DNA of 64,000 nt, taken from a bacterium HR11 (GTDB lineage Bacteria > Acidobacteriota > HRBIN11). A model generated the notes under the pieces. That model saw only the letters and a program-made list of their open reading frames with translations. It was not told where the DNA came from and made no database searches. Location of the stretch: the NCBI GenBank assembly GCA_002898535.1, contig BEHN01000003.1, positions 124,001 through 188,000 of the forward strand. Reading direction: 5' to 3'. Below, in pieces: positions 9,926 through 61,261 of the stretch (position 1 is the stretch's first letter; each line of letters begins with the position of its first letter). A program made the translations under genes and the position numbers.

Positions 9926-9928
9926 AGA

Positions 9929-10185
9929 GGGCCGTTCGGTTCGTGAAAACCCGTATGGATTCGACTTTTCCGACCCTTCGGGGAGAATGGTTTTTCAAGC
10001 TTTGGCAGATAGGCAGTTCGGCAGATGGGCCGATGGTCCCAAAAGCCCTGGGGCTGATCCTTGCCCACCCGGCTTCTATCTGCCTATCTGCCGACCTGCC
10101 CATCGGCCGGATGCTTGAAAAATCGTGCTTTCCGAGCGTTGGGAAAGGTTGTTCCGACGCCGCTCTCACGAACCGAACGGCTCTG
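9929..10185 (+). mobile_element. Type 1 MITE-like element, copy 1
   Basis: The left arm starts GCCGTTCGGTTCGTGAAAAC and the right arm ends ACGAACCGAACGGCTCTG. Between them lie octamer repeats facing each other (GGCAGATAGGCAG against CTGCCTATCTGCC) around a CCCTGGGGCTGATCC core, so the whole can fold into a long hairpin. The right end abuts the TGA stop of the downstream coiled-coil gene exactly. The left outer bases are decayed. With the heptamer array it fills the 9845-10185 gap. Confidence 0.85.
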
Positions 10186-10818
10186 TCAGAACAGGGACTT
10201 GAGGAGGTTGACAAACGTCGGATTCAGGACCGTCATCAGGAGAAGCAAAAGGAGGATCAGGAAGTTCATCTTCAGATTAAGGCGCTCGTACTGGCCTTCC
10301 AGAACGGCCATGCGATTTTCCAGGTGGGCGACCCGGTCCTCCAGGCGGGCGACCCGGTCCTCCAGGCGGGCCGTTCGTTCCTCTAAACCGGCAATCCGTT
10401 CTCCGAACTCCTGGCGTAGCCCCTGGATTTGCGTTTGGAGCTGGGTCTGGAACTCTTGCCGCAGGCCCTGGAAGTGAGCTTGGAGCTGGGTCTGGAACTC
10501 TTGGCGCAAGCTCTGGACGTGAGCTTGGAGCTGGGTCTGGAACTCTTGGCGCAAGCTCTGGACGTGGGCTTGGAGCTGAGCCTGGAATTCTTGGCGCAGG
10601 CCCTGGATTTGTTCCTGGAACTTTGCCCACAGGGCCTCCATGTGGGCGAGGAAGACCTCCTTCGTGACTAACTTATCCAGGAGTTCGTCCCGTAGAACCG
10701 TCACCTGCACCGTTACGACGGCCCGGACGGCCTCCTCCAAGCCGTGCACGAGTTTACGAGCCGGCTCCTTGCCCAGGACGTCTTCCAGGGCCTCGTAGAC
10801 TTCCACGGGAATCGGCAT
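10186..10818 (-). CDS. Coiled-coil protein with C-terminal membrane anchor, paralogue 1
   Basis: 210 residues, function unknown. The N-terminal 60 residues (MPIPVEVYEALEDVLGKEPA onward) are mixed helix. Then come about four tandem 15-residue units of the type LRQEFQTQLQAHVQS, a heptad stretch (LEERTARLEDRVARLEDRV) and a C-terminal hydrophobic segment of about 18 residues (MNFLILLLLLLMTVL). The overall look is like DUF1640/CCDC90-type tail-anchored coiled coils. A paralogue at 12251-12871 shares the first 218 bp exactly and much of the 3' end, but has a different repeat block. A conserved promoter-like region precedes both genes. Confidence 0.8.
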   Translation of the reverse strand: MPIPVEVYEALEDVLGKEPARKLVHGLEEAVRAVVTVQVTVLRDELLDKLVTKEVFLAHMEALWAKFQEQIQGLRQEFQAQLQAHVQSLRQEFQTQLQAHVQSLRQEFQTQLQAHFQGLRQEFQTQLQTQIQGLRQEFGERIAGLEERTARLEDRVARLEDRVAHLENRMAVLEGQYERLNLKMNFLILLLLLLMTVLNPTFVNLLKSLF

Positions 10819-12250: not shown

Positions 12251-12871
12251 TCAGAACAGGGACTTGAGGAAGTCGACAAACGTCGGATTCAGGACCGTCA
12301 TCAGGAGAAGTATGAGGAGGATCAGAAAGTTCATCTTCAGGTTGAGGCGGTCGTACTGGCCTTCCAGGACGGCCATGCGATTTTCCAGGTTGGCGACCCG
12401 GTCCTCCAAGCGGGCGACCCGGTCCTCCAGGCGGGTCATTCGTTCCTCGAACTCCTGGCGTAGCCCCTGGATTTGGGTTTGGATCTGGGTCTGAAATTCT
12501 TGCCGTAGTCCCTGGACTTGGGTCTGAAATTCTTGCCGCAGTCCCTGGACCTGGGTCTGAAACTCTGCCCGTAGTCCCTGGATCTGGGTCTGAAATTCTT
12601 GCCGTAGCCCCTGGACCTGGGTCTGGAGCTGGGTCTGAAACTCTGCCCGGAGCCCCTGGATTTGTTCCTGGAACTTTGCCCACAGGGCCTCCATGTGGGC
12701 GAGGAAGACCTCCTTCGTGACTAACTTATCCAGGAGTTCGTCCCGTAGAACCGTCACCTGCACCGTTACGACGGCCCGGACGGCCTCCTCCAAGCCGTGC
12801 ACGAGTTTACGAGCCGGCTCCTTGCCCAGGACGTCTTCCAGGGCCTCGTAGACTTCCACGGGAATCGGCAT
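12251..12871 (-). CDS. Coiled-coil protein with C-terminal membrane anchor, paralogue 2
   Basis: 206 residues from the ATG matching paralogue 1; the longer upstream frame is spacer. N-terminus and C-terminus are nearly the same as in the protein at 10186-10818, ending in a hydrophobic segment (MNFLILLILLLMTVL) and NPTFVDFLKSLF. The middle is built mainly of 11-residue units (LRQEFQTQVQG) plus one or two of 15 residues, rather than only 15-residue units. Eleven- and 15-residue units are both compatible with left- or right-drifting coiled coils. No function is known. The two genes flank the FAD subunit gene on the opposite strand, so the intervening plus-strand gene may have been captured between duplicates. 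Confidence 0.8.
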   Translation of the reverse strand: MPIPVEVYEALEDVLGKEPARKLVHGLEEAVRAVVTVQVTVLRDELLDKLVTKEVFLAHMEALWAKFQEQIQGLRAEFQTQLQTQVQGLRQEFQTQIQGLRAEFQTQVQGLRQEFQTQVQGLRQEFQTQIQTQIQGLRQEFEERMTRLEDRVARLEDRVANLENRMAVLEGQYDRLNLKMNFLILLILLLMTVLNPTFVDFLKSLF

Positions 12872-24663: not shown

Positions 24664-24688
24664 GTAAGGCCCCCGGACCTGCCTCGGT

Positions 24689-24952
24689 TAACAGGGCCGT
24701 TCGGTTCGTGAGAGTGGCGTCGGGACAACCTTTCCCAACGCCTGGGAAGCACGGTTTTTCAAGCATCCGGCAGATGGGCAGGTCGGCAGATAGGCAGATA
24801 GAAGCCGGGTGGGCAAGGATCGGCCCCAGGGCTTTTGGGACCATCTGCCCATCTGCCGAACTGCCTATCTGCCAAAGCTTGAAAACCGTCCTTCCCGAAG
24901 GGTCGGAAAAGCCGAATCCATGCGGGTTTTCACCAACCGAACGGCTCTGTTA
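24689..24952 (-). mobile_element. Type 1 MITE-like element, copy 2
   Basis: 264 bp, inverted relative to copies 1 and 3. The ends read GTTAACAGGGCCGTTCGG and CGAACGGCTCTGTTAAC, so the terminal inverted repeat extends through the TA. The core has facing GGCAGATAGGCAGATAG and CTGCCTATCTGCC octamers. It starts 26 bp after the peptidase stop codon. Confidence 0.88.
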
Positions 24953-24994
24953 ACTCGGACCTTCGTCCCTCATTGCGAAGGGAGGTGGCCGTTG

Positions 24995-26869: not shown

Positions 26870-27040
26870 ATGACCGAGACGACTCGGGTCCGGGACCCCG
26901 TATGCGGGATGGAGGTCGACCCCCAGACGGCCCCCGTGTCTCTCCAGTGGGAGGGCCAGACGTACTACTTCTGCTGCGAGCACTGCCTGCGGCGCTTCTT
27001 GCAAGAGCGGACGGGGCCGCGTGGGGAGAGCCCAGGATAA
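26870..27040 (+). CDS. Small YHS-domain protein
   Basis: 56 residues, GGAG eight bases upstream of ATG. The whole protein is one YHS domain: RDPVCGMEV with Cys12, then TYYFCCEHCLRRF with Cys35, Cys36 and Cys39. The positions 12, 35 and 39 are the same as in the N-terminal YHS domain of the CopA ATPase encoded at 28087, so this is a stand-alone version of that domain. It could pass copper or another metal to the pump. Its TAA stop codon is formed at the edge of the following MITE-like element. Confidence 0.82.
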   Translation: MTETTRVRDPVCGMEVDPQTAPVSLQWEGQTYYFCCEHCLRRFLQERTGPRGESPG

Positions 27041-27302
27041 CAGAGCCGTTCGGTTCGTGAAAACCCGCATGGATTCGGTTTTTTCGACCCTTCGGGAAGG
27101 ACGGCTTTTCAAGCTTTGGCAGATAGGCAGTTCGGCAGATGGGCAGATGGTCCCAAAAGCCCTGGGGCTGATCCTTGCCCACCCGGCTTCTATCTGCCTA
27201 TCTGCCGACCTGCCCATCTGCCGGATGCTTGAAAAATCGTGCTTCCCAGGCGTTGGGAAAGGTTGTCCCGACGCCATTCTCGCGAACCGAACGGCTCTGA
27301 TA
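27038..27302 (+). mobile_element. Type 1 MITE-like element, copy 3 (best preserved)
   Basis: 265 bp. TA-A-CAGAGCCGTTCGGTTCGTGAAAA at the left and TCGCGAACCGAACGGCTCTG-A-TA at the right. The left TAA (27038-27040) is the stop codon of the YHS gene. The core carries facing octamers around CCCTGGGGCTGATCC. No coding capacity is seen. Confidence 0.9.
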
Positions 27303-27336
27303 ACGGAAGTTTCTACCGGCCTCGCAGAGGGATGGG

Positions 27337-30747: not shown

Positions 30748-30761
30748 TCCCGTCTTGAACA

Positions 30762-31022
30762 TAGCCGTTGGATCCGGGAGAATCCCGATCAAATCGGCCT
30801 TTTCCGACCCCTCGGGGCGGACGGCTTTTCAAGCTTTGGCAGATAGGCCGTTCGGCAGATGGGCAGATGGTCCCAAAAGCCCTGGGGCTGATCCTTGCCC
30901 ACCCGGCTTCTATCTGCCTATCTGCCGACCTGCCCATCTGCCGGATGCTTGAAAAACCGTGCTTCCCGGGCGCTGGAAAGGGCCGCTCCGACGCCATTCT
31001 CACGAACCGAACGACTCTGGTA
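30762..31022 (+). mobile_element. Type 1 MITE-like element, copy 4
   Basis: The right end (CACGAACCGAACGACTCTG-G-TA) is good; the left end is decayed (TAGCCGTTGG). The core equals copy 3. It begins 15 bp after the copA stop codon. A CCCCGCTCTTGCGAGCGGGG hairpin follows at 31032-31051. Confidence 0.85.
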
Positions 31023-31057
31023 GAATGGCAACCCCGCTCTTGCGAGCGGGGCTGGGA

Positions 31058-31422
31058 TAGCAGAGCCGTTCGGTTGGGAGAAATGCGGTTCCCATCCGGG
31101 AAAACGGTGGCCCGGCAGCCTCGATTTTTCAAGCTTCTTCCGGATGACCCGGCCGTAACGGGCGGTGCATGAGGAGGACGCCCGCAGGACGGCGGGCTCT
31201 CTACGGAAGCCACCGGCATGACGGCCGGTGGGCCGGGGATCGACGCCCGTCGCCCGACCGGCCCGTCTGCCAACCTGCCCATCTGCCGACCTGCTGACTA
31301 CCCATCTGCCCACCTGCCTATCTGCCGACTGCCCATCTGCCGAATACTTGAAACATCATGCTTTCGTGGAGGTGCCCTTTCCGATCTCCATCGCACTTCT
31401 CACCTCCCGAACGGCTCTGTTA
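31058..31422 (+). mobile_element. Type 2 MITE-like element, copy A
   Basis: 365 bp. Same outer repeat (TA-G-CAGAGCCGTTCGGTT and CGAACGGCTCTG-T-TA) but different arms: the left continues GGGAGAAATGCGG and the right ends CACTTCTCACCTCCCGAAC. The core contains GACGGCCGGTG-type units and octamers. It separates copy 4 from the next methyltransferase gene, filling the 30748-31447 spacer. Confidence 0.87.
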
Positions 31423-31447
31423 GCCGACACGCCCCGGGATGTGTCCC

Positions 31448-32842
31448 ATGGCCAAGGAAGACGTCGAAGCCGTTGTCCCGTCGTCTGAGTCGACGGCCTC
31501 GTGGGCCCAGAAAGAATACGAGGCCTGGCAGAGGGCCGTCGAGGAGCGGAAGGCCACGGAGGCGGTCTACAACGAATGGCTCACGGAGGTCGACCGTCTG
31601 CACGACGTCCCGCCCCTCGAAGAGGCCGTCCCCGTCATCCGCCAGCTCCAGGGCGACTTGAATCGTCTATATGAGCTCCTGTCCGTATTCCGGGAGGTCC
31701 CGGTCCGCCGGTGGAACCCCCGGTGGTGGTTGAACCGCCTCTTGGAGTGGGCCTTGGGTCCGCTCCTGAAGCGCCAGCGGGCGTTCAACGCCGTCGCCGT
31801 CCATCTCCTCAACGAGACCCTCGATTACTTGGCCGACACGACCCGGCGGCTCCGGGCCCTGTTGGAGGCCCAGGTCCGCTACTTTCAGCAGGTCACCCCT
31901 TGGATCGACGTGAAGGTCCGGGAGCTCCGGGCCGAGCAGGTCCATAACGTCACGTACAACGTGGGCCGGGTCCTGGAGCACGTCCGCACCTGGCAACGGC
32001 AGACCCTGCCCCATGTTCAGCCGGATTTCCACAAGGTCGAGCGCCTGGCCGTCGAGCTGGAAGCCCTCCGCCAGCAAATCGCCGGCCCGTCGGAGTCCCC
32101 GTCTCCGAGCGTCCCGCCGGACTACGGCCGGCCGCTCCGGCCCTGGGATTTTCCCCTGGCCAGGGACTTCCGGTACTACGTGTTCGAGGAGATCTTTCGG
32201 GGGCCCTCGCCGGAGCTGAAAGAGAAGCTCCGGATGTATCTCCCGTACTTTGCCGAGGCCCCGGAGCCCATCCTGGACGTCGGATGCGGCCGCGGCGAGT
32301 TCCTCGAATGGATGCGGTCTCTGGGAAAGGACGCCTACGGCCTGGAGGTCAACGCCTACGAGGTCCAGAAGCTCCGGGCGGCCGGTCTCCGGGTCGTCGC
32401 CGAGGACGCCCTGTGCCATCTCCGGGGTCTGTCGCCGGGGAGCGTCGGCGGTGTCTTCTGCGCCCAGGTCGTCGAGCACCTGCTTCCGGAACACGTCTAC
32501 GAGCTCGTCGTCCAGCTCCACCGGGTCATGAAGCCTGGGGCCCCGCTCGTCATCGAGACGCTGAATCCCCTTTCCGTGTATGCCTTCCATCGGGTGTATC
32601 TCATCGACCCGACCCACGTCTATCCGGTCCACCCCCAGACGCTGGTCTTCTTCATGCGCTATGCGGGCTTTCGGGACGTGACGGTCCACGGCATCACGCC
32701 CGTGCCCGATGCGGTCCGTCTGCCCCCGCCGGGAGACGACCTTCCCGAAGACGTCCGTTCATACTGGACCGAGGTCGTCCGGCGGTTGAACGAATTCCTC
32801 TTCGACACCGTCGAATACTACGTCGTCGGCTATCGGCCGTGA
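31448..32842 (+). CDS. Coiled-coil SAM-dependent methyltransferase
   Basis: 464 residues from the ATG at 31448; another ATG at 31439 is possible. The first 220 residues are helical and coiled coil. The methyltransferase domain starts near 265 with motif I LDVGCGRGEFLEWM and continues with GLEVNAYEVQ, and FCAQVVEHL as post-motif I/II. The layout resembles the bifunctional O-antigen chain terminators (WbdD-type methyltransferase plus coiled coil), though the kinase domain is lacking. Surface polysaccharide capping is therefore a guess. A GCGARTR array begins at its stop codon. Confidence 0.82.
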   Translation: MAKEDVEAVVPSSESTASWAQKEYEAWQRAVEERKATEAVYNEWLTEVDRLHDVPPLEEAVPVIRQLQGDLNRLYELLSVFREVPVRRWNPRWWLNRLLEWALGPLLKRQRAFNAVAVHLLNETLDYLADTTRRLRALLEAQVRYFQQVTPWIDVKVRELRAEQVHNVTYNVGRVLEHVRTWQRQTLPHVQPDFHKVERLAVELEALRQQIAGPSESPSPSVPPDYGRPLRPWDFPLARDFRYYVFEEIFRGPSPELKEKLRMYLPYFAEAPEPILDVGCGRGEFLEWMRSLGKDAYGLEVNAYEVQKLRAAGLRVVAEDALCHLRGLSPGSVGGVFCAQVVEHLLPEHVYELVVQLHRVMKPGAPLVIETLNPLSVYAFHRVYLIDPTHVYPVHPQTLVFFMRYAGFRDVTVHGITPVPDAVRLPPPGDDLPEDVRSYWTEVVRRLNEFLFDTVEYYVVGYRP

Positions 32843-32909
32843 ATGGCGAGTGGCGAGTAGCGAATGGCGAGTAGCGAATGGCGAATAGCGAGTGGCGAAT
32901 GGCGAATAG
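32840..32909 (+). repeat. GCGARTR heptamer tandem array
   Basis: About nine to ten 7-bp units (GCGAGTG, GCGAGTA, GCGAATG, GCGAATA) starting right at the methyltransferase stop codon. Same family as 8241-8287, 36532-36629 and 58282-58337. Confidence 0.9.
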
Positions 32910-32935
32910 TCTGTAGTCCGGGGTCGGTGGTCTAT

Positions 32936-33280
32936 TATCAGAGCCGTTCGGTTGGGAGAAATGCGGTTCCCATCCGGGAAAACGATGGCCCGGCGATCTC
33001 GATGTTTCAAGCTTGTTAAGGATGACACCGCCATGACGGGCGGTGTTCAGAGGGGATCGACCCGGCCAGGACGGGCGGTGCATGGGGAGGACGCCCGCAG
33101 GACGGCCGGTGTTCCCAGGATAGACGCCCGTCGCCCGACCCGCCGACCTGCCCATCTGCCAACCTGCCCATCTGCCTATCTGCCGACTGCCCATCTGCCG
33201 AATGCTTGAAACATCGTGCTTTCGCGGAGGTGCCCTTTCCACTCTCCATCTCACTTCTCACCTCCCGAACGGCTCTGATA
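32936..33280 (+). mobile_element. Type 2 MITE-like element, copy B
   Basis: 345 bp; TTA-T-CAGAGCCGTTCGGTTGGGAG at the left and CCTCCCGAACGGCTCTG-A-TA at the right. The core has repeated GACGGGCGGTG-type units and octamers CGACCTGC/CATCTGCC. Together with the heptamers it fills 32843-33308. Confidence 0.87.
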
Positions 33281-35093: not shown

Positions 35094-35355
35094 TAGAGCC
35101 GTTCGGTTGGTGAGAATGGCGTCGGAACAACCTTTCCCAACGCCCGGGAAGCACGATTTTTCAAGCATCCGGCAGATGGGCAGGTCGGCAGATAGGCAGA
35201 TAGAAGCCGGGTGGGCAAGGATTAGCCCCAGGGCTTTTGGGACCATCTGCCCATCTGCCGAACTGCCTATCTGCCAAAGCTTGAAAAACCGTCCTCCCCG
35301 AAGGGTCGAAAAAGCCGAATCCATGCGGGTTTTCACCAACCGAACAGCTCTGCTA
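35094..35355 (-). mobile_element. Type 1 MITE-like element, copy 5
   Basis: 262 bp, inverted. Left end TTAGAGCCGTTCGGTTGGTGAGAATGG, right end TTTTCACCAACCGAACAGCTCTG-C-TA. It starts eight bases after the queG stop. A GGATGCA-type array at 35467-35503 and CCGAACTC-type octamers fill the rest up to 35534. Confidence 0.87.
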
Positions 35356-35534
35356 AAAGACTCATCCCCGCCCCGGCCGGCCCCCCATGCCCGATTTCCC
35401 GAACTCCCGAATTGCCGAACTCCCGGATTCCCGGATTCCCGACCTGCCGACCTGCCCAACTGCTCTTGCATCCTGCATCCCGTATCCTGTATCCTGCATC
35501 CTGAACTTTCGACTGTCGCAGGAGGGGTGGAAGG

Positions 35535-36705: not shown

Positions 36706-38346
36706 ATGCGGTACCCCATCGTCGAAAGCCTGAAGCAACAACGGGACCGGGAGCGCTTCTTGATTCCGCTGAAACGGCACGCCCCCTGGCGGGTCGCCCT
36801 GGCCCATCCCAACACGTACCACGTCGGGATGTCCAACCTGGGCCTCCAGGCGGCCTACCGGGTGTGGAACGAAGAGCCGGACTTCTTATGCGAGCGGTTC
36901 TTTCTCCCGACGGCCGCTCAGCAGGTGGCCTATGTCCAGAGCCGGACGCCTCTCCTGACCGTCGAGTCCCAGCGGCCCGTCGATGAGTTCGACGTCGTCG
37001 CCTTCTCGATTTCCTTCGAACTGGACTACGTCTGGCTCGTCCGCATGCTCCGGATGGCCCACCTGCCGGTGTATTGGGCAGAGCGGGTCGAGGGCCACCC
37101 CCTCGTCGTCGTCGGAGGCCCCTGTGCGTGGATGAACCCCCTGCCGATGGCGCCCTACGTGGACGTCTTCGCCCTCGGGGATGCCGAGCTCCTGATCCCC
37201 GTCCTCGACGAAGCCTTGCGAAACTATCGGGCCCGGGCCGACCGACTGGCCTTCCTGGCGAGTCAGCCCGGCTTTTATGTCCCGGCCGTCCACGGGACGG
37301 ACCCGGCTGTCTTGAAGGCGAAGGTCCTCCGGCCTCGCTTCGTCTCGGCCCGGGCGGCCATCGACCCGCCGTACTCTTGCATCCTGACGCCCGATACGGA
37401 GTTCGGCAACACGTTCCTCGTCGAGATCATGCGGGGTTGCGTCCACTGGTGCCGCTTCTGCTGGATCGGCTACAACCACAGCCTGCGCTTTGCCTCGGCC
37501 GAGCGCTTTCTCGAGATCGTCCGGACGCACGCCCCGGCGGATGCGACCGTCGGCATCCTCGGCGGCTCCCCGACGGACCATCCCGAGTTCCGAACCATGC
37601 TTCGCGCCCTCGTCGAGGCGGGCCGGCCCGTGACGGTCAGCTCCCTGCGCATCGATACCCTGGACGAGGAGCTCCTGACGCTCCTCCGGCGGGCCGGCAA
37701 GCGGAGCGTGACGATGGCGCCCGAGACGGGGAGCGACGAACTCCGGCGGGTCGTCCGCAAGCCCCTGACGAACGACGACCTCTTCCGGGCCGTCGAGGCC
37801 ATCGCCCGCCTGGGCTTTCAGTCCGTCAAGCTCTACTACATCATCGGCTTTCCGACCGAGACGTGGGACCACCTCCGGGAGACCGTCGAGGGCCTCCGGC
37901 GCCTGTCGGCCATCGCCCAGCGATACTCGCCGCACCTCGTCATCCGGCCCAGCTTCAACTGCCTGATCCCCAAGCCGGGCACGCCCTTCCAGTATGCGGC
38001 TATGGAGCCGGAGGACGTCCTGACCGAGAAGATCAATTACCTGAAGCGGGAGCTGAACCGGCTTCCGTACGTCCACGCGACCTTTATGAGCCCCCTCTAC
38101 GCGTACTATCAGGCCATCCTGAGCCTCGGCGACGCCTCCGTCAGCGCCCTCGTCGAGGCCATCGAGGCCCAGGACGGCGCCTGGCGGGACGTCGTCCGCC
38201 GACGTCTGGCCGATTACGCCGACCTGCTGTTCCGGGAACGGCGGGCCTATGCATTCCCCCACGAGTTCATCACGGTCGGCTTCCGGCCCGGCTTTCTGGA
38301 GGAAGAATACCGGAAAGCCCTGGCCGAGGCCCCAGCCGTCGTCTAA
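36706..38346 (+). CDS. B12-binding-type radical SAM protein
   Basis: 546 residues. The N-terminal third (HPNTYHVGMSNLGLQAAYRV to VVVGGPCAWMNPLPM) is a cobalamin-binding-like domain. The radical SAM core begins with CVHWCRFC, a CX3CX2C cluster motif, then GGSPTDHPEF, APETGSDELR and YYIIGFPTETW. The C-terminal part is helical. It resembles the TIGR03960-like or YgiQ-like group of uncharacterised radical SAM proteins. Reaction unknown. The start has no strong ribosome site, but upstream sequence is repeat, so ATG at 36706 is most likely. Confidence 0.85.
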   Translation: MRYPIVESLKQQRDRERFLIPLKRHAPWRVALAHPNTYHVGMSNLGLQAAYRVWNEEPDFLCERFFLPTAAQQVAYVQSRTPLLTVESQRPVDEFDVVAFSISFELDYVWLVRMLRMAHLPVYWAERVEGHPLVVVGGPCAWMNPLPMAPYVDVFALGDAELLIPVLDEALRNYRARADRLAFLASQPGFYVPAVHGTDPAVLKAKVLRPRFVSARAAIDPPYSCILTPDTEFGNTFLVEIMRGCVHWCRFCWIGYNHSLRFASAERFLEIVRTHAPADATVGILGGSPTDHPEFRTMLRALVEAGRPVTVSSLRIDTLDEELLTLLRRAGKRSVTMAPETGSDELRRVVRKPLTNDDLFRAVEAIARLGFQSVKLYYIIGFPTETWDHLRETVEGLRRLSAIAQRYSPHLVIRPSFNCLIPKPGTPFQYAAMEPEDVLTEKINYLKRELNRLPYVHATFMSPLYAYYQAILSLGDASVSALVEAIEAQDGAWRDVVRRRLADYADLLFRERRAYAFPHEFITVGFRPGFLEEEYRKALAEAPAVV

Positions 38347-38662
38347 TAGCCGAGCCGTCCGGCTCGTGAAAACCCATATGGATTCGGCTTTTCCGACCCT
38401 TCGGGGCGGACGATTTTTCAAGCCGAGGTTTTCATCCCAGCCCCGCTCGTTAGAGCGGGGTCCCCCTTCGGGGCGGACGATTTTTTTGAAGGGACGGAGT
38501 GACGAGCCGCGGTCTTGGGCCGACGGGCAAGTCGGGATCATCCTTCCATCGTCCCTTCGTCACTCCATCACTCCGTCCCTTCATCCCTTTGAAACATCGT
38601 GCTTCCCAGGCGATGGGAAGGGCCGTCCCGACGCCATTCTCCCGGGCCGAACGGCCCTGCTA
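38347..38662 (+). mobile_element. Type 1 MITE-like element with substituted core
   Basis: TA-G-CCGAGCCGTCCGGCTCGTGAAAACC at the left and GGGCCGAACGGCCCTG-C-TA at the right. The core lacks the usual octamers and instead has a CCCCGCTCGTTAGAGCGGGG hairpin and facing GGGACGGAGTGACGA and CGTCCCTTCGTCACTCC repeats. Its TA follows the TAA stop of the radical SAM gene directly. Confidence 0.82.
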
Positions 38663-38754: not shown

Positions 38755-39177
38755 ATGGACGGCGAGTGGCGGGTGTGGTGGCCGGCATTTCACGCCGCCC
38801 TCAACGGGACGACGGCCGTCCTGCTGGCGGCCGGCCGGTACTTCATCCGACGGGGTCGGATTCAGGCCCATCGGCGGTGCATGCACACGGCCTTCGGGCT
38901 TTCCGTCCTCTTTTTCGTGTCTTACCTGGTATACCACAGTCTCGTCGGGACGACCCGCTTCGGCCGCGGCGGATGGCTCCGGGCCGTCTACCTGGCCGTC
39001 CTGACGACGCATACGGTCCTGGCCGTCGCCGTCGTCCCCCTGGCCGTCGTCGTCCTCATCCGAGGTCTTCGCCGACAGTGGCCCCGCCACCGGGCCCTGG
39101 CCCGGTGGGCCTGGCCGATATGGCTATACGTGGCCGTCACGGGCGTCTTGATCTATTTTATGTTGTACCGTCTTTAG
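38755..39177 (+). CDS. DUF420 membrane protein
   Basis: 140 residues from the ATG with GGAG seven bases upstream; a longer version from 38692 is possible. Four membrane helices with the DUF420 pattern: HAALNGTTAVLLAAG, HRRCMHTAFGLSVLFFVSYLVYH, YLAVLTTHTVLAVAVVPL and ARWAWPIWLYVAVTGV. Conserved His residues fall in helices 1-3, so haem or metal binding is possible. DUF420 genes often lie near cytochrome c oxidase or SCO genes, but none is here. The TAG stop is formed at the edge of a MITE-type repeat. Confidence 0.85.
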   Translation: MDGEWRVWWPAFHAALNGTTAVLLAAGRYFIRRGRIQAHRRCMHTAFGLSVLFFVSYLVYHSLVGTTRFGRGGWLRAVYLAVLTTHTVLAVAVVPLAVVVLIRGLRRQWPRHRALARWAWPIWLYVAVTGVLIYFMLYRL

Positions 39178-39238
39178 CAGAGCCGTTCAGGCCGTGAGAA
39201 TCGGCCCTTCGGGAAAGACGATTTTGCAAGCTTTGTGA
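39175..39238. mobile_element. Solo end of a MITE-like element at a stop codon
   Basis: TA-G-CAGAGCCGTTCAGGCCGTGAGAATC, then CCTTCGGGAAAGACG and TTTTGCAAGC. No opposite end is seen. The TAG is the DUF420 stop codon. Downstream, a CCCCGCTCGGGCGAGCGGGG hairpin lies at about 39285-39304. Confidence 0.75.
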
Positions 39239-39687: not shown

Positions 39688-39780
39688 CCCGGCCAGGAAG
39701 AATGGGGAATGGGTCTCTATCATTGATGCTGGATGGCCGGACGAATGGCCGAATTCCCGAACTCCCGGACTGCCGGGTCC

Positions 39781-43141: not shown

Positions 43142-43268
43142 GACGGTCTGACCTCGGCGACTCGAACTTACCCGGGGGCCTCCGTAGACCCAGGATGAAG
43201 GATACAGGATGCAGGCCACAAGAGGGGAATGCAGAGGGCGGAGTGGAATTCAAGCCCCGCTCATCGGA

Positions 43269-43346
43269 CAGAGCCGTTCGGTTCGTGAAAACCCGCATGG
43301 ATTCGGCTTTTCCGACCCTTGGGGGCGGACGATTTTTCAAGCCGAG
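43269..43346 (+). mobile_element. Solo left arm of a type 1 element
   Basis: CAGAGCCGTTCGGTTCGTGAAAACCCGCATGG onward to CGGACGATTTTTCAAGCC. It runs directly into a 120-bp tandem repeat block; no matching right end is found. Confidence 0.8.
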
Positions 43347-43347
43347 G

Positions 43348-43655
43348 TTTTCATCCCAGCCCCGCTCGCCCGAGCGGGGTCGGGGCGATCCGGCCATCCG
43401 GGAGTTCGGGAATTCGGCAGTTCGGCAGTTCGGCAGGTGGGCAGGTCGGCCGGGGGGCCAGCGACCCTTTTCATCCCAGCCCCGCTCGTCAGAGCGGGGT
43501 CGGGGGCGATCCGGCCATCCGGGAATTCGGGAATTCGGCAGTTCGGCAGGTGAGCAGGTGGGCAGGTCGGCCGGGGGGCCGGCGACCCTTTTCATCCCAG
43601 CCCCGCTCGTCAGAGCGGGGTCGGGGGCGATCCGGCCGTCCGAGAATTCGGGAAG
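43348..43655 (+). repeat. 120-bp tandem repeat, two full copies and one partial
   Basis: Units start TTTTCATCCCAGCCCCGCTC at 43348, 43468 and 43589 (periods 120 and 121). Each holds a CCCCGCTCG-CGAGCGGGG type hairpin, a GGGGCGATCCGGCC block, octamers of GGGAATTC/GGCAGTTC, and GGCCGGGGGGCC. Copies are near identical, so the duplication is recent. Confidence 0.9.
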
Positions 43656-53874: not shown

Positions 53875-54350
53875 TATCAGAGCTGTTCGGTTCGTGAGAA
53901 TGGCGTCGGAACCACCTTTCCCAACGCCTGGGAAGTACGGTTTTTCAAAGTGACGAAGTGACGAGCCATGGCCTTAGACCGATGGGCCGGTCGGGAGTTC
54001 GGGGATTCGGGAATCCGGCAATTCGGGAATTCGGGAGTTTGGGAACTCGGGCATGAGGGGTCGGCCGGGACGGGAGTGAGGCCTGAAGGCTGGCGCCGGC
54101 GGTCGGCGACAGGAGGGGGCGAAAAGTCAGAAAAGCTTCAGGAAGACGGGGGACTTGGAACGATGGATGCTCTTTGCCTTCTACTTCTACGTCGGCCGCC
54201 GAACAGCCTTCCCGGATTCCCGGACTGCCGAATTCCCGAATTTCCGAACTGCCCACCTGCCGAACTGCCCTTTGCTTGAAAAGCTATTCTCCCCGGAGGG
54301 TCGAAAAAGCCGAATCCATGCGGGTTTTCACCAACCGAACGGCTCTGCTA
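53875..54350 (-). mobile_element. Type 1 MITE-like element with long foreign core
   Basis: 476 bp. Left TA-T-CAGAGCTGTTCGGTTCGTGAGAATGGCG, right TTTTCACCAACCGAACGGCTCTG-C-TA. The arms match the other copies but the core differs: octamers of GGGAATTC plus the 54091-54222 module that also occurs inverted at 43641-43790. The last three bases (54348-54350) are the TAG stop of the minus-strand LuxE-like gene. It fills the 53876-54347 gap. Confidence 0.87.
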
Positions 54351-55439
54351 TGCCAGGAGGCTACAGCCGCGGGGTTCGGCCTCGGGGAGGCGGCCCTCGA
54401 GGGTCAGACCCTCGGCGTCGACGCAACCTACGTCTTCGGTGACGATGAAGGCGATGGAATCGAGGTTGGCCGGGTCGATGAAGGCGAGGGGCCCCGTCGC
54501 CGGGGGCTCGACGGGCCGTCCTGTCTCGGGGTCCCACACGGCGACGTGGACCCACGGAGGCCCGACGAGACGGCGGGAAGCCGGGCGTCCCTCCAGGGCG
54601 GCCCGGACGGTGACGTCGTAGAACTGGCTTCCCAGCTCGGTCATCCCGTACTCGGCGACGATGAAGGCCTCGGGGAGTCCGAAGGTCTGGCTCAGGCGGG
54701 TATAGAGTTCCTCTTTCGTGACGGCGACCCGACGGCCCTTGAAGCCGCCCGTCTCGACGAGGCGGCTTCCCGGCGGGAGGGGCCTCGGGCGGACGCCCCG
54801 CGTTTCCATCCAGAGGAGCCATTCGTAGAGGGCGATGGCCGTCCCGAAGATGAGGACGGGTTCCGGCGAAGCGTCGGCATCGGCCAGCCACCGGCTCGCG
54901 CCCTCGAAGTCGGGGCCGTCGGCCGTCCAGGCATGCAGACTCCCCGGCGTCCCGAAGGCTTCCATGAGCCAGTCCAGCATCTGGCCGAGGGACGACTCGG
55001 GCCGGTGACGGGTCGAGGGGCCGAGGAGGAGCATTCGGACCCGGTCCCGGTCGGGCAGAACCCACCGTCGGAAGTGGCTCAGGGCGGCAGACCGGTAGAG
55101 TTCGAGTCGGAAGAAGGGGTGGACGGACCGACCGGCGGGGCCCCGCTGGGTCCCGCTACTGTAGAAGACGGCCCGGGCGTGCTCTCGGGGGAAGGCCCCG
55201 ACCCAGTGGGTCTTAAACAGCGTGACGGGGACGAAGGGGACGTACCGCCAGTCGCGGACCTGTGTCAGTTCGACACCGAGCCGCCGGACATACCGCCGGT
55301 AGACGGGGTTGTACTCGACTTGATAGCGAAAGACCGTCAGCCACAGGTCGGCCCAGAGGGCCGGGTCTTCCGTGTACGCCTCAAAGTGCTCGATCAGCCG
55401 GTCGGCGAGTTCTTGGCCGGGCCAAAGGACGTCGTTCAT
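54348..55439 (-). CDS. LuxE/PaaK-like acyl-protein synthetase
   Basis: 363 residues from the ATG overlapping the MNT gene stop (ATGA). It fits the acyl-protein synthetase (LuxE) family: VPFVPVTLFKTHW, then an adenylation-type loop VFYSSGTQRG, STRHRPESSLGQML, ETGGFKGRRV, FIVAEYGMTELGSQFYD and AVWDPETGRPV. The family activates a carboxylate to an acyl-adenylate and transfers it to a Cys. LuxC (acyl reductase) is not next to it, so it may take part in another acylation, for example of surface glycans. Its coupling to a HEPN-MNT pair is unusual. Confidence 0.82.
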   Translation of the reverse strand: MNDVLWPGQELADRLIEHFEAYTEDPALWADLWLTVFRYQVEYNPVYRRYVRRLGVELTQVRDWRYVPFVPVTLFKTHWVGAFPREHARAVFYSSGTQRGPAGRSVHPFFRLELYRSAALSHFRRWVLPDRDRVRMLLLGPSTRHRPESSLGQMLDWLMEAFGTPGSLHAWTADGPDFEGASRWLADADASPEPVLIFGTAIALYEWLLWMETRGVRPRPLPPGSRLVETGGFKGRRVAVTKEELYTRLSQTFGLPEAFIVAEYGMTELGSQFYDVTVRAALEGRPASRRLVGPPWVHVAVWDPETGRPVEPPATGPLAFIDPANLDSIAFIVTEDVGCVDAEGLTLEGRLPEAEPRGCSLLA

Positions 55440-60903: not shown

Positions 60904-61261
60904 TATCAGAGCTGTTCGGTTGGGAGAGACGCTACTCCCATCCGGGAAAACGATGGCCCGGCCATCTCGATGTTTCAAGCTTCCTCCGGATGACCCGGCC
61001 AGGACGGGCGGTTCATGAAGATGACGCCCGCAGGACGGCGGGCTCTCTCCGGAAGCCCCCGGCATGACGGCCGGTGTTCCGGGGATCGACGCCCGTCTCT
61101 CGACCTGCCCACCTGCCGACCTGCCCAACTGCCCATCTGCCAAATGCCCATCTGCCCATCTGCCGACCTGCCCAACTGCCGAATGCTTGAAACATCGTGC
61201 TTTCGTGGAGGTGCCCTTTCCGCTTCCCATCGCACTTCTCACCTCCCGAACCGCTCTGGTA
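60904..61261 (+). mobile_element. Type 2 MITE-like element, copy C
   Basis: 358 bp; TTA-T-CAGAGCTGTTCGGTTGGGAG at the left, CACCTCCCGAACCGCTCTG-G-TA at the right. Core as in copies A and B. The rest of the 60694-61289 spacer has GTGACGAC-type repeats near 60715-60765 and no gene. Confidence 0.87.

Follow-up and report, generated by a model that had tools for sequence, protein, structure and literature searches.

A genus-specific MITE family in Acidobacteriota duplicates a 4-bp NTAN target that may contain a stop codon

The window analyzed here (64,000 nucleotides, positions 124001-188000 of contig 3 of the host genome, which comprises 2.99 Mb in 49 contigs) carries repeats that are transposable elements, forming a bacterial MITE family with CAGAGCCGTTCGG…CCGAACGGCTCTG ends. 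Their target-site duplication is 4 bp long, N-TA-N, and is not TA. With a probability of roughly 93%, the repeats are non-autonomous MITEs that a DDE-type transposase mobilizes in trans, with duplication of the NTAN target. Points against this reading are the failure to find a transposase or autonomous copy, the numerous copies with unlike flanks and arms with no partner, exceptions to the central TA, and a one-letter difference at the empty site in the window. Insertion at NTAA or NTAG duplicates the whole stop codon, and the upstream gene still ends at its original stop, in the proximal copy. The family offers a clear case of a 4-bp target rule that lets a mobile element enter a stop codon while the protein is unaltered, and it corrects the inference that such an element builds the stop codon.

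Copies in the window and anatomy of the element

Ten two-ended copies were found, in keeping with the at least nine given in a preliminary description of this DNA, and at least two single ends are also present, at 39178 and 43269 (Table 1). The TA-N reported there to flank the ends does precede most of them, but the real flank signal is the 4-bp NTAN rather than TA plus a base of the element. An identical 4-bp duplication is kept in only two of the ten copies, those at 24692 and 27041. In six further copies the two flanks both read NTAN but disagree in their outer letters.

Table 1. Element copies, adjoining genes and target sites in the window (TSD, target-site duplication)
Feature	Position	Strand	Evidence or remarks
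YHS-domain gene	26870..27040	+	Pfam PF04945, E 1.8e-14; stop inside left TSD
Left 4-bp TSD ATAA	27037..27040	+	27038-27040 forms the YHS gene's TAA stop; identical to 27300-27303
Two-ended element, arms A/B, 259 bp	27041..27299	+	Perfect CAGAGCCGTTCGG inverted ends
Right 4-bp TSD ATAA	27300..27303	+	Sequence
Two-ended element, arms B/A	24692..24949	-	TSD TTAA/TTAA at 24688-24691 and 24950-24953
Two-ended element, arms A/B	9927..10185	+	Flanks GCAA/TCAG, no TSD
Two-ended element, arms A/B	30760..31019	+	Left end badly degraded; flanks TGAA/GTAG
Two-ended element, arms C/D	31061..31419	+	Flanks ATAG/TTAG; missing in both congeners
Two-ended element, arms C/D	32939..33277	+	Flanks TTAT/ATAA; missing in both congeners
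Two-ended element, arms B/A	35094..35352	-	Flanks CTAT/CTAA; missing in congener L040
Two-ended element, arms A/B	38350..38659	+	Flanks ATAG/CTAA
Single element end	39178..39220	+	Directly 3' of the TAG stop (TTAG) of the DUF420 gene
DUF420 gene	38755-39177		Pfam confirms DUF420
Single element end, arm A	43269..43345	+	Runs into tandem repeats
Two-ended element, arms B/A	53878..54347	-	Flanks TTAT/CTAT
LuxE-like gene	54348-55439	-	Pfam confirms LuxE
Two-ended element, arms C/D	60907..61258	+	Flanks TTAT/GTAT
Unoccupied counterpart of congener insertion L062:4015-4353	39720..39723	-	ATGA on minus strand

The anatomy of the element was derived from 1.85 Mb of the host (62% of 2.99 Mb). Elements start with CAGAGCC, finish with GGCTCTG and are mostly 223-531 bp long, the bulk measuring 258-400 bp. 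They are non-coding, with CAGAGCCGTTCGG inverted ends and an interior of degenerate 7-8-base repeats, as is usual for MITEs, and their interiors were found to hold no transposase-like open frame. Four arm types could be distinguished, which have in common only their outermost ~15 bp and, further in, a box near CGATTTTTCAAGC. The usual arm pairs are A/B (22 of the 58 validated copies) and C/D (23 of 58), while the chimeric pairs B/C, B/D and A/C are also present. The A/B form, typically 258-260 bp in length, folds into a single long hairpin, for which a free energy of -167.1 kcal/mol (z -16) was calculated in the copy next to the YHS gene.

Degenerate 7-8-base arrays also fill intergenic DNA outside the elements, with GGCAGATN, GGATACAG, GAATGGC and GGGAATTC types found in many intergenic gaps (for example at window positions 32843-32935, 35390-35520 and 43200-43600). 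Such array-filled DNA is replaced wholesale from one congener to another, the genes of these congeners being ~90% identical. The GGCAGAT array of the element interior (query 78-110) was matched, over ~30 bp each, in three other genomes (G133, G150 and G317). As these represent distant Acidobacteriota families that are free of the element, the arrays may be independent of it.

A promoter-like sequence, TTGACC-17-TATAGT, precedes the gene at 31448 in both congeners (L040 4780-4830; L041 4230-4290). It is gone from window positions 31020-31448, where the elements at 30760 and 31061 stand instead.

Target site and neighboring stop codons

The preliminary description had proposed a TA duplication. 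Genome-wide alignment of flanks and inspection of empty sites gave a different result. At four positions and no others, identity between left and right flanks was elevated (55, 68, 62 and 54 of 78), compared with ~30 of 78 beyond them. With relaxed ends, 39 element pairs with identical NTAN were found in 1.22 Mb, versus 0.2 per control offset. In 1.85 Mb there were 58 two-ended copies with identical NTAN, against ~0.3 expected and 2 summed over seven shifted offsets.

Three empty sites were found. The element at C1:397480-397739 is nested in another element, many unoccupied copies of which show one TTAA, and that at C3:110660-111013 lies in another repeat whose unoccupied relative has a single TTAT. 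The third is a congener insertion flanked by ATAA/ATAA; its joined flanks align to the window with 89.6% identity over 299 bp, and the empty site there differs from ATAA by one letter within the 4 bp (last row of Table 1). Taken together, the flank identity, the NTAN pairs and the empty sites establish a duplication of 4 bp, the kind of insertion signature expected of a MITE. The outer letters of NTAN match between left and right and vary among copies, and thus belong to target DNA and not to the element. The central TA is not absolute, as single validated-looking duplications of TCAT and TTGA were seen. About half of the arm-paired copies have no identical duplication; recombination between copies and point mutation would have blurred their flanks.

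Some targets are clearly preferred. TTAA was observed 10 times versus 2.0 expected, CTAA/TTAG 16 versus 4.8 and ATAA/TTAT 19 versus 6.7, while GTAN/NTAC sites were avoided. There is also a weak palindromic T/A preference three bases outside the target. The element's own ends fit this outer preference, which may explain an excess of element-NTAN-element junctions (55 sites versus 9 in the control).

Several gene stops adjoin element ends exactly as first described: the TAA of the YHS gene, the TAG of the DUF420 gene, the TAG (minus strand) of the LuxE-like gene, which lies within the right flank of its element, and the TGA (minus strand) of the gene at 10186-10818, next to the right end of the element at 9927..10185. 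A further copy, placed at 38347 and said to abut a TAA, starts at 38350; the gene there has its in-frame TAA stop at 38344-38346, followed by a duplication-like ATAG. In all, 23 ends lie exactly on the stop of a called gene (10 TAG, 8 TAA and 5 TGA), with the YHS stop at 27040 as one more. These counts, like those given below for insertions at stops and within genes, are approximate, as genes were called by a basic procedure that overlooked the short YHS gene.

It had been suggested that the first base of the element restores the stop. This does not hold. TAA and TAG are the last three bases of an NTAA or NTAG target, so the stop is target DNA. Since it lies wholly inside the duplicated target, the element's first base has nothing to restore, and since the whole site is copied at insertion, the stop codon survives unchanged. 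Genes lacking the element bear this out, the same stop being found at the same place in four of them: the orthologues in the congener G001 of the genes at C1:43296 (ending ATAA) and C1:161680 (TTAG), the DUF420 orthologue in the congener G002 (TTAG, within TTTTAG) and the paralogue of the gene at 10186-10818 (CTGA). Two other relatives have TGA at that stop position. The paralogous genes, at 10186-10818 and 12251-12871 (minus strand), lie side by side, are 86% identical in DNA and encode coiled-coil proteins with internal repeats; only one of them has an element at its stop.

The remaining part of the earlier claim, insertion within stop codons, stands insofar as several copies lie exactly on stops, but with target preference taken into account any special targeting is marginal at best. 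Active targeting of stop codons by the element is very unlikely. It would account for the 23 ends on called stops, for the 8 of 39 validated insertions at stops (9.4% expected, P = 0.03) and for the presence of TAA or TAG on one strand in 54 of the 58 duplications, versus 75% of intergenic NTAN. Nevertheless, the excess is about two-fold and is not significant in the larger set (11 of 72 events versus 9.4% expected, P = 0.07, with sites weighted by target preference). Moreover, most insertions are away from stops, the 4-bp preference alone accounts for the TAA/TAG content, and the same picture would be expected of an IS5-like enzyme that uses YTAR as its target. Any over-representation of stop-codon sites is mild at best, and target preference together with loss of in-gene insertions is sufficient for most of the link.

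Distribution, age and mobilization of the family

With up to one mismatch allowed, 531 end matches were found in the host genome, versus 12 for a reversed-pattern control. Two congeners were compared, of which one gave 223 matches and the second 9, which is background; 37 other Acidobacteriota were also at background. In the window, 69 end matches with three mismatches allowed exceeded a shuffled maximum of 57. In 1.45 Mb of the host, 102 two-ended copies were accompanied by 97 unpaired arm hits. The copy number and dispersal are thus those of a MITE family. When element DNA was compared with 396 Acidobacteriota genomes, full-length matches were confined to the host and G001, with weak partial ones in G002 and elsewhere. 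An Rfam scan of the window and searches of phage and plasmid nucleotide sequences with the element gave no match. A scan of IMG/VR with the 15-mer end returned 63 stretches with one end each, which were taken as chance. Judging from isolate names, the host genus belongs to hot-spring Acidobacteriota and is probably thermophilic. The repeats accordingly represent an abundant, genus-specific MITE family of these bacteria, the transposase of which is missing.

Although ~75% of NTAN sites are genic, none of 39 validated copies lies within a called gene, which probably reflects selective loss of in-gene insertions. Divergent, tandem and convergent gaps all hold copies, approximately as their share of intergenic length would predict. 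Gene identity to G001 is 85-94%. None of the window elements compared with L040 is present there; usually the intergenic stretch concerned has been replaced entirely. One insertion, at C1:167766, is common to the host and G001 and is the only shared one seen, and the two congeners carry different element sets. Such differences in element content between genomes with close genes suggest that amplification has continued since the species split.

These observations also bear on a reading in which the repeats are not mobile but are functional 3'-end hairpins, such as terminators or RNA processing sites, that are selected and spread by recombination. The very strong hairpin (z -16) and the several copies immediately 3' of stops are consistent with it, and BOX repeats of pneumococcus likewise supply stops at gene ends (PMC3049150). 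It is nonetheless improbable to a high degree: insertion is evident from the 4-bp duplications and empty sites, divergent gaps are occupied as well as tandem and convergent ones, and every testable window copy is missing in the congeners.

The preliminary description recognized no transposase in the window, and none was recognized here. Seven Pfam DDE transposase families, presumably typical of IS630, IS4/IS5, IS701, IS1182 and IS1380 transposases, had no match in the host genome, and the six of these that were also searched in the congeners were absent. Neither an autonomous copy nor a long copy with a transposase reading frame was found in 1.85 of the 2.99 Mb. Long pairs with matching NTAN (C15:471-1623, C23:9305-11147 and C4:130094-130933) proved to be several elements abreast, two of them enclosing a host gene. 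The pair at C23:9305-11147 has two perfect ends with TTAG on both sides; between them lie several elements together with a gene for a protein that resembles tRNA (guanine-N7) methyltransferase. The arrangement is possibly a product of composite transposition, or of chance. The only mobile-looking multi-copy gene in 1.2 Mb encodes a TnpB-like protein, which would not make a 4-bp duplication. The assignment was made by inspecting the protein sequence. Two such TnpB/IS605 OrfB-like genes (C5:4812-6140 and C2:10-861, one at a contig end) are 95% identical and have zinc-ribbon CxxC motifs.

The mobilizing enzyme of the MITEs would be of DDE type. It may have been lost, may lie in the unassembled or unexamined part of the genome, or may belong to a family other than those tested. 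It is conceivable, if doubtful, that an undescribed transposase family mobilizes the elements and that its preference for TTAA, CTAA/TTAG and ATAA/TTAT fits TAA/TAG stops, making insertion at gene ends harmless.

The earlier attribution to an IS630/Tc1-type MITE, with a 2-bp TA duplication and a stop completed by the element's first base, finds support in the TA that flanks nearly every end and in bacterial MITEs such as RUP, which have been linked to IS630 and to TA as target (PMC2229807), but is barely tenable given that the outer letters of NTAN match left and right well above background, that empty sites hold the full NTAN, that the same third stop base is present without the element, and that the IS630 DDE domain PF13358 (DDE_3) is absent from the host genome.

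Relation to known mobile elements

Correia/NEMIS elements of Neisseria and RUP of pneumococcus resemble the window family in being short and non-coding, with inverted ends and a TA-containing target, and in having ~100 copies or more, mostly intergenic, with strongly paired transcripts (PMC2229807). The window family differs, in a comparison made by description and not by sequence, in its 4-bp NTAN rather than TA duplication and in being G+C-rich rather than A+T-rich. Furthermore, no partner IS was found for it. BOX repeats of Streptococcus pneumoniae are dispersed and occur at extreme 3' gene ends, with 36 genes receiving their stop from the repeat (PMC3049150). There the repeat supplies the stop itself, whereas in the window family the stop is pre-existing target DNA.

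Members of the IS5 family (IS5, and IS711/IS6501 of Brucella) use the target YTAR (PMC10359306; PMC2266754). IS711 also prefers existing palindromic repeats, and the window elements likewise recur beside existing copies. YTAR is fitted by 26 of the 58 duplications (TTAA and CTAA/TTAG). Unlike IS5 family targets, ATAA/TTAT (19) and ATAG/CTAT (7) are outside YTAR on either strand. IS5-type transposase domains (DDE_Tnp_1, DDE_Tnp_1_2, DUF772, DDE_Tnp_4; PF01609, PF13586, PF05598, PF13359) were absent from the host and both congeners (G000-G002). The IS701 family makes a duplication of exactly 4 bp (PMC2266710), as does the window family. Its end consensus, ---YACT-Y--YR, has no obvious fit to CAGAGCCGTTCGG, and an IS701-type DDE_5 (PF13546) protein was absent from the genus genomes.

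The NTAN duplication thus appears closest to those of IS5 (YTAR) and IS701 (4 bp). The family is assigned to no IS family, since none of the tested transposases is present and its target does not wholly follow YTAR. Bacterial MITEs are already known as a kind, to which this genus-specific NTAN family is an added member.
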